Position numbers and translations under genes: made by a program | Notes under the pieces: generated by a model | Databases searched by the model: none | What the model saw: the letters and a program-made list of their open reading frames with translations, nothing else | Told to the model about the DNA's origin: nothing | From: Acidimicrobiales bacterium | Lineage (GTDB): Bacteria > Actinomycetota > Acidimicrobiia > Acidimicrobiales > Aldehydirespiratoraceae | Direction: 5' to 3' | DNA length: 37,900 nucleotides | Assembly: GCA_022425325.1 (NCBI GenBank) | Contig: JAKMFW010000010.1 | Span: forward strand, 1-37,900 | Part shown: positions 4,746 through 7,299 of the stretch, in pieces | Numbering within the stretch: the first letter of the stretch is position 1 | How the letters are laid out: each line of letters starts with the position of its first letter

Positions 4746-4844
4746 AGCTCCCCCTCCAGGCTGGCTGACTCTAGCCGCACCCTCCGCCTGGCTTGCACTC
4801 GGGTGAGATGGGGGAGCGGCTGCGTCGTGTGGCATGCTCCATCG

Positions 4845-5030
4845 ATGCCGACCGACGCCTTCGCTTGCCCTCGTTGTGGCAGCCAGACCGACGAGACGTA
4901 CTACGGGCCGTGTGCGGGCTGCCGCACCGAACTGCGGGCGACGATGGGCGCTGACGCCAAGGACGTCGCCGTCGAGTACGAACCGAAGAGGAACGTCACA
5001 CCGAACGCCGTGGCCCTGAAGGACGACTGA
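4845..5030 (+). CDS. Small zinc-ribbon protein (61 aa)
   Basis: A 61-residue protein with two CxxC knuckles, C8-x2-C11 and C23-x2-C26, and an acidic and basic tail. The spacing fits a zinc ribbon. The ATG at 4845 immediately precedes the knuckle; upstream in-frame sequence overlaps the opposite-strand flavoprotein and has no such features. It is divergent from the flavoprotein (99 bp apart) and convergent with the proposed RNA at 5039-5740. Function is unknown; zinc ribbons of this size often bind nucleic acid or act as subunits. Confidence 0.6.
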   Translation: MPTDAFACPRCGSQTDETYYGPCAGCRTELRATMGADAKDVAVEYEPKRNVTPNAVALKDD

Positions 5031-5038
5031 CCGGGGGC

Positions 5039-5102
5039 CAAAACGAAACGAAGCCCCGAGTAGCCTCGCCCGCCTTGCGACGGACTCAACTCCTCGGGGC
5101 TC
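5039..5102 (-). terminator. Rho-independent-type terminator of the proposed RNA
   Basis: AGCCCCGAG (5102-5094) pairs perfectly with CTCGGGGCT (5061-5053) and is followed on the minus strand by the T-rich run TCGTTTCGTTTTGG (5052-5039). The 32-nt loop is long. Orientation shows that transcription from the minus strand ends here. Confidence 0.6.
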
Positions 5103-5740
5103 CGAGATCGACGTGATCATCATGTTCCACCACCCGAGAGCGATGAAACTCGTTGGGTGATTCCCCGTGAAGGGTTTCACCCTGACCAGCCGGCCCGGGA
5201 ACGTCTCCCGATCCTGCTGACCTGCATCGGCGTCCGGCACCCGGCGGTGCCTACGGGCCGTTCCGGTCGCCTTGCCCGTCAGCAAGGCTTCCGACCCGGT
5301 CCGCACGACCCCTCACCTCGGGGAGCGCCCCTTGATCCGGCCGCACACTCCGCAGCGTGCGCCTGGCGACCAACGAGATCTCCGAGATGCGATGATCCGG
5401 TGGCCCTCCCGGATCCTCCCTTGTGAGAAGTGCCCGGACGAGTCGCCGCCTCACCAGCGGTGTCTCGGCCGATCAACCGCTCCCGAGGGAGTGGCTTGAT
5501 CGTGTCGGTGTCGCCGCTCCCAACCTGCTGGAGGTTCTCGATCCGCCGCTCGGGACTTGCGCCCCTCCCGACCTCTCGGTCTCTCCGTCGCACGCTGTTC
5601 GCTTCGACGTGGTCATCTTCTGACGCCGCCACCACCGACGCAAGGGGTTTGGCTGAAATCCACAGAACATTCGGGGATTCCCACCGGACATCCCCAACGA
5701 AAGCGCAGTTTTCCTCAGCTTCATCCACCAACCAAGCCGG
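5039..5740 (-). ncRNA. Candidate large structured non-coding RNA
   Basis: The 722 bp between genes (5031-5752) have no convincing protein but many stems. Perfect or near-perfect stems are: 5132-5136/5156-5160; 5197-5201/5207-5211; 5237-5242/5247-5252 (6 bp, 4-nt loop); 5270-5276/5283-5289 (7 bp) extended across a GGAA bulge by 5266-5269/5294-5297; 5343-5347/5358-5362; 5395-5401/5410-5416 (7 bp); 5472-5485/5488-5502 (about 12 bp with a bulge); 5571-5574/5579-5582; 5587-5591/5606-5610; 5674-5679/5691-5696. On the minus strand two loops are GNRA tetraloops: GAGA at 5575-5578 and GCAA at 5558-5561. The latter closes a 5-bp stem containing a G-U pair that would be a C-A mismatch on the plus strand. 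A terminator ends the minus-strand transcript. The 5' end is a guess just after the phosphodiesterase stop. RNase P, tmRNA and SRP signatures were not found. Confidence 0.5.
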
Positions 5741-5752
5741 ATTGGCGACGTT

Positions 5753-6505
5753 TCAGGCCAGCGACACGCCTCGCTCGGCAAAGACTGACGCAAGGACCTC
5801 AGGGCGATCGGTCATGATGGCGTCGACGCCGAGGTCAACGAGACGATGCATCTCCTTAGGGTCGTCGATCGTCCAGACGTGCACGTGGATCCCGCACCCG
5901 TGAGCGAACTCAACGAACCGGCGAGTGACGACCGGGATGGGTCCGAAGACGGGCGGCACTTGCAAGACGTCAACGTCGCGGAGCGCACCAATCCCGGCAA
6001 GACCGACCATAGCCTCGATCGTCGCGCCGGTAGCGCCCCCGGTGCACAGGTCACTGCCGACACGGCGCTTCACCCGCTCGGTTCGCCGGCGAGAGAACGA
6101 CGTGACGCACACCCGGTCCTGCACACCGTAGTGAAGGATCAGATCAGCGAGTGGCTCGACCGCCGTGTCGGCCTTGGGATCGATGTTGATCCGGGCGTCC
6201 GGGAACCGCTCCAGCATCTCGTCGAACCGCAGGATCGGATCCGTGCCGTCGACGCGTGCTTCGGCGACCTCGGCCCACGTGAGGTCGATGATTCGACCGG
6301 TGCGGTCGGTCACTCGGTCGAGCTTGTCGTCGTGGAACGCGATCAGTACGCCGTCGGCGGTGGCATGAACGTCCGTCTCGAGATAGCGATACCCGACTTC
6401 GACAGCGTGCCGAAACGCCCGTTCGGTGTTCTCCGGATGAGCGCCCGCACCACCGCGATGGGCGAAGCCGATGGGCGCCTCATAGGCGAGGTACGGGTGC
6501 AGCAC
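5753..6505 (-). CDS. Glycerophosphodiester phosphodiesterase (GDPD family)
   Basis: 250 residues. GFAHRGGAG (H16, R17) followed by PENT (E25-T27) is the GDPD active-site signature, and ETDVHATADGV with IAFHD supplies the metal-binding E-x-D and catalytic His. These TIM-barrel enzymes hydrolyse glycerophosphodiesters to glycerol-3-phosphate and an alcohol. No signal peptide is visible, so it is cytoplasmic, like UgpQ. GTG 6505 begins directly at the domain, and TACGGT lies 7 nt upstream, so the mRNA is probably leaderless. It is divergent from the SirB1-like gene by 32 bp. Confidence 0.88.
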   Translation of the reverse strand: MLHPYLAYEAPIGFAHRGGAGAHPENTERAFRHAVEVGYRYLETDVHATADGVLIAFHDDKLDRVTDRTGRIIDLTWAEVAEARVDGTDPILRFDEMLERFPDARINIDPKADTAVEPLADLILHYGVQDRVCVTSFSRRRTERVKRRVGSDLCTGGATGATIEAMVGLAGIGALRDVDVLQVPPVFGPIPVVTRRFVEFAHGCGIHVHVWTIDDPKEMHRLVDLGVDAIMTDRPEVLASVFAERGVSLA

Positions 6506-6531
6506 GGTAGGGACCGTACCGTGGGTACTGT
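6503..6531. promoter_or_regulatory. Divergent leaderless promoters with an inverted repeat
   Basis: Minus-strand -10 TACGGT (6518-6513) lies 7 nt before GTG 6505. Plus-strand -10 TACTGT (6526-6531) lies 6 nt before GTG 6538. CACGGTA (6503-6509) and TACCGTG (6517-6523) form a perfect inverted repeat with a 7-nt spacer, covering the phosphodiesterase start codon and its -10. It may be an operator, or a by-product of the two promoter signals. Confidence 0.6.
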
Positions 6532-6537
6532 GCCGGG

Positions 6538-7299
6538 GTGCGTCTGCCGGTGCGGCTCTCCGCGTTCTTCTCTGATCCTGGTGTCGTGCCGCTCGACGAG
6601 GCCTTGCTGTGGGTGGCGTCCTTGCGCCCAGGTGCATCCGTCGACATCGGCGAACACCTCAGGCTGCTCGACACCTGGGCCGAAACCGCGCCCTCGAGCG
6701 ATGTCGAGGGACTTCGGGTGCTCGTCTACGACCGTCTCGGCTTTCGCGGCGACGTCGACGACTACCACCAGCCCGCGAACTCGTACCTCGACGAGGTCCT
6801 GCGCCGCCGGCAGGGGATGCCGATCACCCTTGCGGTCGTGCTGCTCGCTCTCGGTCGAAGGATCGGTGTCGAACTCGTTCCGATCGGGGCACCCGGCCAC
6901 TTCCTCGTGAAGGAGCCCGTCAGCGGCTCGTTGCTCGATCCCTTCGATCGCGCTTCCGACCTGCAGCCCAACGCGCTTGCCGCCCGCATGGCAGCGCTCG
7001 GTGCGCACCTCGACCTGACCGAGGCGCTCGCCCCGATACCCGATCAGGCCGTCGTCGCCCGTGTCCTCAACAACCTCACCAACACGATGGTGCAGCGATC
7101 GGTGCGGGATCTCGATTGGGTTCTCGACCTGCGTCTGGCGCTTCCGCTGCGCTATCAGGATCCCCGCGCACTGGCGGCGCTCTGCGAGCAACGAGGGCGC
7201 CTCGACCGTGCCGCCGAGCTTCTCGACCTGCTTGCACGGGCTACCGAACGTGAGGACCTCAGCCGCAGAGCCCATGCCTTGCGAGCCCGCCTGAACTAG
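6538..7299 (+). CDS. SirB1-family protein (transglutaminase-like core)
   Basis: 253 residues. The central stretch (about 80-125) with YLDEVLRRRQGMPITLAVV and ELVPIGAPGHFLVK matches the SirB1 / Transglut_core2 family, followed by helical tetratricopeptide-like repeats near the C-terminus (about 180-250: LRYQDPRALAAL, GRLDRAAELLDLL). There is no Cys at the expected catalytic position, as is usual in SirB1 proteins, so hydrolase activity is doubtful. GTG 6538 has TACTGT 6 nt upstream and no Shine-Dalgarno: a leaderless start. The biological role of the family is unsettled. Confidence 0.82.
   Translation: MRLPVRLSAFFSDPGVVPLDEALLWVASLRPGASVDIGEHLRLLDTWAETAPSSDVEGLRVLVYDRLGFRGDVDDYHQPANSYLDEVLRRRQGMPITLAVVLLALGRRIGVELVPIGAPGHFLVKEPVSGSLLDPFDRASDLQPNALAARMAALGAHLDLTEALAPIPDQAVVARVLNNLTNTMVQRSVRDLDWVLDLRLALPLRYQDPRALAALCEQRGRLDRAAELLDLLARATEREDLSRRAHALRARLN

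Follow-up and report, generated by a model that had tools for sequence, protein, structure and literature searches.

The window analysed here (the whole 37,900-nucleotide stretch of DNA, from an Acidimicrobiales bacterium) carries on its minus strand a putative large structured RNA of the Acidimicrobiia that is absent from Rfam and appears to be new. Comparison among relatives shows a unit of about 570 nt whose multi-domain fold is conserved. A -35/-10 promoter directly precedes it, phased repeats lie further upstream, and it ends in a 3' hairpin that is strongly conserved and is found again across the Acidimicrobiia. Judged from these sequence comparisons, the shape of the RNA has been kept by evolution while its sequence changed, and the feature is real and unusually well supported for a computational finding. 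It is probably a free-standing noncoding RNA gene, transcribed, we infer, from about position 5608 and ending just past the terminal hairpin. To our knowledge, large bacterial RNAs with comparable conserved structure are few, and several of them proved to be machines of a new sort; many Acidimicrobiia, a group known mostly from metagenome assemblies, carry the gene for this one in the chromosome. The promoter, the phased boxes, the class-wide hairpin, the GNCG loops and an empty site in a relative are all new beyond the original prediction. The RNA and its neighbours are as follows.

5608 to 5039, minus strand: long-form RNA of about 570 nt, with 5' GUCGAAGC at 5608; both ends are putative; supported as a unit by 27 long forms and covariation
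5753 to 6637, minus strand: GDPD gene (PF03009, E = 3.4e-43), the upstream neighbour of the RNA
4842 to 5030, plus strand: gene for a small zinc-ribbon-like protein, convergent with the RNA; read by eye, with no Pfam match

The original prediction was a stable minus-strand RNA of about 700 nt occupying 5039–5740. A structured minus-strand RNA is upheld by covariation, constant length, strand bias, the promoter and the spread among relatives, at a length of about 570 nt; it occupies about 5608–5039, and 5609–5740 hold the promoter and repeat array. The minus strand of 5039–5740 folds at -356.6 kcal/mol with a z score of -8.9 (against 20 dinucleotide shuffles), and the plus strand reaches a far weaker z of -2.85. 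The RNA strand likewise has the lower z in all 11 long forms tested (of 27 in the set) and in 62 of 69 short forms, four chance-like loci (L067, L092, L095 and L111) having been left out of this comparison. A plus-favouring pair, 5480/5493, had been listed as counter-evidence; it carries no weight against the minus strand, because helices 5 and 6 are separated by an internal loop to which 5480 belongs, and 5493 is an edge position of helix 5.

A BLAST search covering 61 relatives hit 28 genomes, among them the window's own. The long matches were in eight genomes of genus g1 (again counting its own), and most of the others covered about 40–80 bases, mostly the 3' hairpin. Reading the full flank revealed an RNA of the same length in eight of those other genomes, and in four further ones the contig ended inside the RNA. 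Together with a named genome collection, from which 22 candidate long-form loci were drawn (10 proved to be duplicates, and one, L051, had no start by the rule used), the relatives yielded 27 distinct long forms of 567–578 nt, so that the conservation in relatives on which the prediction had been made to depend was found, at near-constant length. L002, a near-copy of L001 that contains an N, was excluded from alignments A1 and A3.

Five clades (8, 4, 3, 2 and 10 sequences) were aligned and folded apart. Any two of the resulting structures share 124–170 of about 190 pairs with a tolerance of two columns, compared with means of 2.8–4.2 and a maximum of 32 in the shifted-structure control. The structure of one clade pairs 68.1–73.8% of the cells in rows left out of its derivation, against an average of 37.5–39.1% and a maximum of 46.1% when the partners are slid. 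The conserved structure over 26 aligned rows comprises 174 pairs in 23 helices, which bears out the claim of at least ten stems. In these rows and pairs 76.5% of cells are paired (shuffled, 67.0%), double-sided compensatory changes occur in 110 of the 174 pairs (shuffled, 84.0±3.8) and in 483 cells (shuffled, 215.9±12.0), and the covariation score is 0.315 (shuffled, 0.178). None of 500 shuffles was as high in paired cells, double-sided pairs or cells, or score, and a single shuffle attained the observed number of further pair types; sliding by 1–3 columns leaves 46–67 double-sided pairs. When the 3' part was aligned by itself, in 15 rows, 20 of 39 pairs showed double-sided changes. These figures come from a sequence-only alignment, and the clades share ancestry and one energy model, so they are to be read as strong controls and not as a formal covariation test. 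Helices 1, 15, 16, 21 and 22 are paired in only 31–56% of cells, through either misalignment or variability.

A protein-coding or chance stem-rich stretch was the reading under which the prediction would have failed, and high GC does yield many stems by chance. The agreement of the clade folds, the pairing in held-out rows, the double-sided changes and the strand bias all speak against it. Coding is excluded because each of four sequences (L001 and L003–L005) has stop codons in all six frames and, when five sequences are compared with L001, 49 of the 57 indel runs have a length not divisible by three. We therefore consider a coding or chance origin extremely improbable.

The predicted anatomy of the long form, on the minus strand throughout, is as follows.

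5511 to 5608, minus strand: domain I (helices 1–4), an irregular hairpin with a GCAA tip (5557–5560), closed by pairing of the 5' end with (C)GAC
5475 to 5496, minus strand: hairpin with a CUCG/UUCG-type loop (helices 5–6; helix 6 pairs in 58% of cells)
5226 to 5473, minus strand: domain II, multibranched (helices 7–18), closed by helix 7
5277 to 5280, minus strand: GNCG tetraloop (GACG) of helix 17; GNCG in 26 of 26 rows
5242 to 5245, minus strand: GNCG tetraloop (GCCG) of helix 18; GNCG in 24 of 26 rows
5184 to 5222, minus strand: domain III, a long hairpin (helix 19), with double-sided changes in 12 of 16 pairs
5202 to 5205, minus strand: GNCG (GACG) at the tip of helix 19; GNCG in 25 of 26 rows
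5155 to 5182, minus strand: helix 20 hairpin, with double-sided changes in 7 of 9 pairs
5124 to 5149, minus strand: hairpin of helices 21–22, weakly supported (36% and 35% of cells paired, unguided alignment)
5048 to 5105, minus strand: terminal hairpin CCCCGAG-R-AG ... RRCU-A-CUCGGGG, matched by model R2 in the window's own genome and class-wide
5039 to 5052, minus strand: T-rich, terminator-like tail, read from the sequence; TTTT in 12 of 26 long forms

The closing pairs of domain I are predicted in clades AB and F, and helix 1 is weak (56% of cells paired). Helix 7 (5467–5473 with 5226–5232) is paired in 91% of cells; the weak helices of domain II are 15 (31%) and 16 (52%). Of two GNRA loops described earlier, the GCAA at 5557–5560 is retained; the GAGA, presumably that of a local GACC-GAGA-GGUC hairpin, is absent in L003 and L004, and the bases of that hairpin belong to conserved helices 2–3. 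A second GCAA loop lies at 5075–5078, in the terminal hairpin. The predicted terminator stem is real and is helix 23, with 97.7% of cells paired. The accompanying T-run is present in the window and in fewer than half of the long forms: 3' of the hairpin, 12 of 26 have TTTT, 12 have CGCGTC and two have neither. CGCGTC also stands in place of the T-run in many short forms, and might be either another way of terminating or a 3' processing signal.

A cmscan of the window with the 4227 families of Rfam 15 gave no hit at the gathering score. Four sub-threshold matches were seen at E up to 5; the best, to F6, falls on the terminal hairpin and scores 22.6 bits where the cut-off is 46. Rfam also gave nothing at E up to 0.5 in 18 relatives or at E up to 1 in six loci, of which three had not been searched before. 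RNase P RNA and tmRNA, already doubted, are accounted for elsewhere in the genome: RF00010 is unmatched here and its copy lies on contig C36 (E = 2.5e-78), and RF00023 is unmatched here with its copy on C38 (E = 3e-29). The earlier failure to match SRP RNA or group I/II introns holds for this locus against the Rfam models. The 6S model (RF00013) had no match in ten genomes at E up to 1; it is insensitive in this phylum, since the control was detected in 6 of 14 genomes and missed in Corynebacterium. Blastn of the window sequence against phages and plasmids gave no match, one pattern match in viral contigs appeared chance-like by eye, and we found no description of the RNA in the open-licence papers searched.

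The promoter and the array upstream of it are laid out as follows.

5615 to 5620, minus strand: -10 element GAAGAT, with a like arrangement in relatives
5638 to 5643, minus strand: -35 element TTGCGT, 17 nt from the -10
5655 to 5729, minus strand: phased DnaA-box-like repeats, five boxes, two of them weak
5655 to 5664, 5687 to 5696 and 5720 to 5729, minus strand: boxes TGTGGATTTC, TGGGGATGTC and GGTGGATGAA, respectively, read from the sequence
5676 to 5685 and 5709 to 5718, minus strand: weak boxes, read from the sequence

Among 16 long forms the -35 is TTGAC in eight and another TTG hexamer in eight. The boxes, of the form CTG[GT]GGATTTC with a phased TG[TG]GGA core, also lie upstream of the promoter in relatives. 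In 109 regions, each of about 182 bp, they average 1.32 per region, compared with 0.042 in random stretches, and 57 of the 109 have two or more (0.9% of random stretches do); these two figures include genomes present in both collections. No box is seen in 33 of the 109; this count, like the cluster and UvrD-linked counts below, uses a box matrix trained on the same promoters, and the promoter counts are accordingly descriptive. Spacing is mostly 11, 21–22 or 32 bp and the distances from the -35 are fixed at 20–21, 52–53 and 74, so the boxes face the same side of the helix. A search of nine genomes for a two-box pattern gave nine sites, with no match in two of the genomes. Seven of the sites are the RNA promoter; of the other two, one is immediately upstream of smc in the genome of the window and one is inside a reverse-transcriptase gene (by eye). 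The reversed control of the pattern had none in the same nine genomes. Clusters of at least three boxes lie just upstream of the promoter in 36 of 37 cases in loci with a mapped promoter; in other loci 31 of 37 are followed by a hairpin of this RNA's type within 900 nt, and six are not.

We call the repeats DnaA-like by their likeness to what we take to be the DnaA box, TTGTCCACA/TTATCCACA. It is quite possible, although we lean slightly against it, that the phased boxes bind DnaA or a regulator with like sites, which would couple RNA synthesis to replication or growth. Against a DnaA reading stand the 33 boxless regions and the UvrD-linked loci with a readable upstream region, of which 12 of 13 are boxless (L146 has four boxes); clusters of at least three boxes occur beside dnaA in two of five genomes, and the window's own dnaA locus has only two boxes. 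The smc site, L199 (G000:C56:6656-6695, upstream of a PF02463 gene), is the sole other two-box site in the window's genome and may hint at a shared regulator of replication and segregation. An origin RNA was considered and rejected: in two single-contig genomes, G364 and G015, the RNA lies about 0.40 and 0.45 of the chromosome from dnaA.

The terminal hairpin reaches much further than the long form. Model R2 (the hairpin) matches at least 71 of 395 sampled genomes of the class, in 44 of 184 genera and as a single copy in 70 of the 71, and model R1 (the 3' part) at least 61 of 395. In a phylum set R2 matches at least nine of 396 genomes, six of them outside the class; search filters make all of these counts lower bounds. 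A scan of the named collection for the hairpin pattern found at least 118 loci. Among the matches listed (80 titles), at least 47 name Acidimicrobi-, at least 21 Actinomycetota, Actinobacteria or Actinomycetes without a finer label, at least four only "bacterium" and at least five others, of which L090 and L098 have promoter and hairpin and three are chance-like. Microthrix, Poriferisocius and Sva0996 (at least three among the matches listed) we take to belong to the Acidimicrobiia, and the titles listed include a marine group and a sponge symbiont. The invariance of the arms is overstated, as both the scan pattern and the rows of alignment A2 were selected on them; R1 matches include arm variants such as CCCCAAG/CUUGGGG.

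A promoter precedes the hairpin in at least 93 of the 118 loci by a permissive rule that favours TTGACA and has no chance baseline. In these 93 loci, among the matches listed, the distance from -10 to hairpin is 140–279 nt in 67, 500–539 nt in 18 and other in eight, and across the class it spans about 85 to 530 nt. One short-form group (L068, L102, L121 and relatives) has strongly conserved hairpins of its own, AGGUUCCCUGGGAC and GGGGGUCGUCCGACCC, and the bodies thus differ between lineages. Outside the class the six matches are weak, a lead only, and were read by eye. L188 and L191 have a promoter, a body of about 160 nt and the hairpin; L194 is ambiguous in arrangement; and R2 matches two of five genomes in the class of G481, no more than had been found before. 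L189, L192 and L193, two of them from one genus, have a -35/-10 directly before a bodiless hairpin and could possibly be a minimal RNA of about 55 nt. These three loci and the widely variable distance from -10 to hairpin in the 93 loci would suit a hairpin that is by itself a functional small RNA from its own promoter, the body being neutral or structural growth in between. We think this fairly unlikely: the three matches are few and weak (E = 0.0006–0.003), and a neutral body would not keep the length and the 110 compensated pairs of the long forms.

The genes downstream of the RNA vary. The window has the convergent gene, 14 loci have a UvrD-like helicase, and a sigma-region-4-like protein lies near nine, these two labels coming from one protein of each run against Pfam. 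The last is a recurrent small protein (L113, L106 and seven further loci); that of L113 matches sigma-70 region 4 (PF04545) just below the cut-off. The UvrD-like gene, being next on the same strand in its 14 loci, would be the target of a long 5' leader or attenuator, which we nevertheless rejected as very improbable, since the window's downstream gene (4842–5030, plus strand) converges on the RNA and the downstream genes differ between lineages; the RNA is therefore not a cis-element of one gene. Gain or loss is visible nearby. G008, from the same genus as the window, carries a short form, some 300 nt long, that has a like array and hairpin (L207), and in G034, of genus g2 in the same family, the GDPD gene adjoins the zinc-ribbon gene and the RNA is absent, an empty site (L210). 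Two more g2 genomes, G009 and G018, have neither RNA nor zinc-ribbon gene between GDPD and a flavoprotein-like gene (by eye), the next gene in the window past the zinc-ribbon gene, and the R2 search had no match among the five g2 genomes listed. The RNA is thus not needed everywhere.

The long forms share a loop type. GNCG makes up 99 of their 229 predicted tetraloops, compared with 3 of 75 in one shuffle set, and occupies six hairpin positions in 18, 14, 26, 24, 25 and 22 of 26 rows; at hairpins 4 and 23 the loop is instead GNRA, in 16 and 22 of these rows. The YGNCGG motif occurs 114 times in 26 long-form RNAs (28.7±4.9 in 100 shuffles) and is depleted in short forms, with 24 in 70 RNAs against 46.7±6.5; the chance-like L111 may be included in these loop and motif counts. 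Short forms are not enriched in GNCG and have GNRA and UNCG loops instead, so the GNCG loops cannot carry a class-wide function. CsrB-type sponge RNAs carry GGA loops and titrate CsrA, and the repeated YGNCGG of the long forms, in a fast-evolving body between a fixed promoter and 3' hairpin, would allow a similar titration of an RNA-binding protein. We judge such a sponge quite unlikely, as the motif is depleted in short forms and the multibranched domains exceed a sponge's structural need.

The same loops might let the long form assemble from RNA only, packing within or between molecules through self-complementary GNCG loops. Their fixation at six hairpins and enrichment over shuffles favour this, as does precedent: GACG loops kiss through only two pairs in retroviral RNA dimers, in the parts of PMC7357161 and PMC516450 used here, and GOLLD, ROOL and OLE form large homo-oligomers whose contacts include kissing loops, in the part of PMC12286853 used here. 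We nonetheless hold it to be unlikely, the short forms lacking the enrichment, the window's own RNA having three such loops (helices 17, 18 and 19) and not six, and GNCG being possibly just a stable loop.

The reading that we prefer, tentatively and at less than even odds, is that the RNA acts in trans as a ribonucleoprotein. A core cellular factor would dock on the terminal hairpin, with its R.A mismatch between CCCCGAG and AG, and the body would serve as a scaffold specific to the lineage. RNA polymerase would be the likeliest partner, which would make this the Acidimicrobiia counterpart of the 6S, Ms1 and CoRP RNAs; we propose it because an RNA that is structured, lineage-restricted and single-copy, and that has its own promoter, matches that group in role. 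RNA polymerase-binding RNAs of the phylum are diverse and reach such a length, the CoRP RNA of Corynebacterium glutamicum having 516 nt and binding RNA polymerase, in the part of PMC11077062 drawn on here, and Ms1 binds the core enzyme and has another synteny, in the parts drawn on of PMC9130861 and PMC6582537. Against such a role, the long form is not a single rod with a central bubble, and its body is not conserved across the class. A more elaborate combination, in which GNCG kissing builds a self-assembling particle, the hairpin recruits a core protein and a DnaA-phased promoter times production to chromosome replication, is conceivable but improbable. The variable body, the conserved promoter and hairpin and the GNCG repeats make RNA-only assembly and replication-coupled expression directly testable, and a class without a recognised 6S RNA gains a candidate.

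Several known systems invite comparison. The long form resembles CsrB-type sponges in repeating a loop motif across many hairpins, the loop being GNCG here and GGA in CsrB, and only the tetraloop type is common to it and the retroviral GACG kissing loops, with no relation implied. GOLLD and ROOL are associated with phages, and these families and OLE are, we presume, included in Rfam. The long form differs from all three in its lack of Rfam, phage and plasmid matches and in the existence of short forms, and is like them in being large, ornate and multi-hairpin with kissing-capable loops, as far as the part of PMC12286853 used here describes them; a self-assembling long form, if true, would parallel the GOLLD/ROOL cages as a particle that is cellular and not of phages. 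As the used part of PMC9130861 has it, 6S is a rod with a central open-promoter-like bubble, and Ms1 is its relative, syntenic with a HAD-IB hydrolase. The long form, by contrast, has several domains, and in the window this RNA neighbours the GDPD and zinc-ribbon-like genes; Ms1 is a widespread RNA of Actinomycetota, and the Acidimicrobiia searched give no 6S match. CoRP, likened here by description and not by sequence, differs in being flanked by tRNA genes and in that its RNA polymerase binding has been shown, and is similar in phylum, length, structured character, intergenic gene and narrow phylogenetic range (PMC11077062, in the part used).
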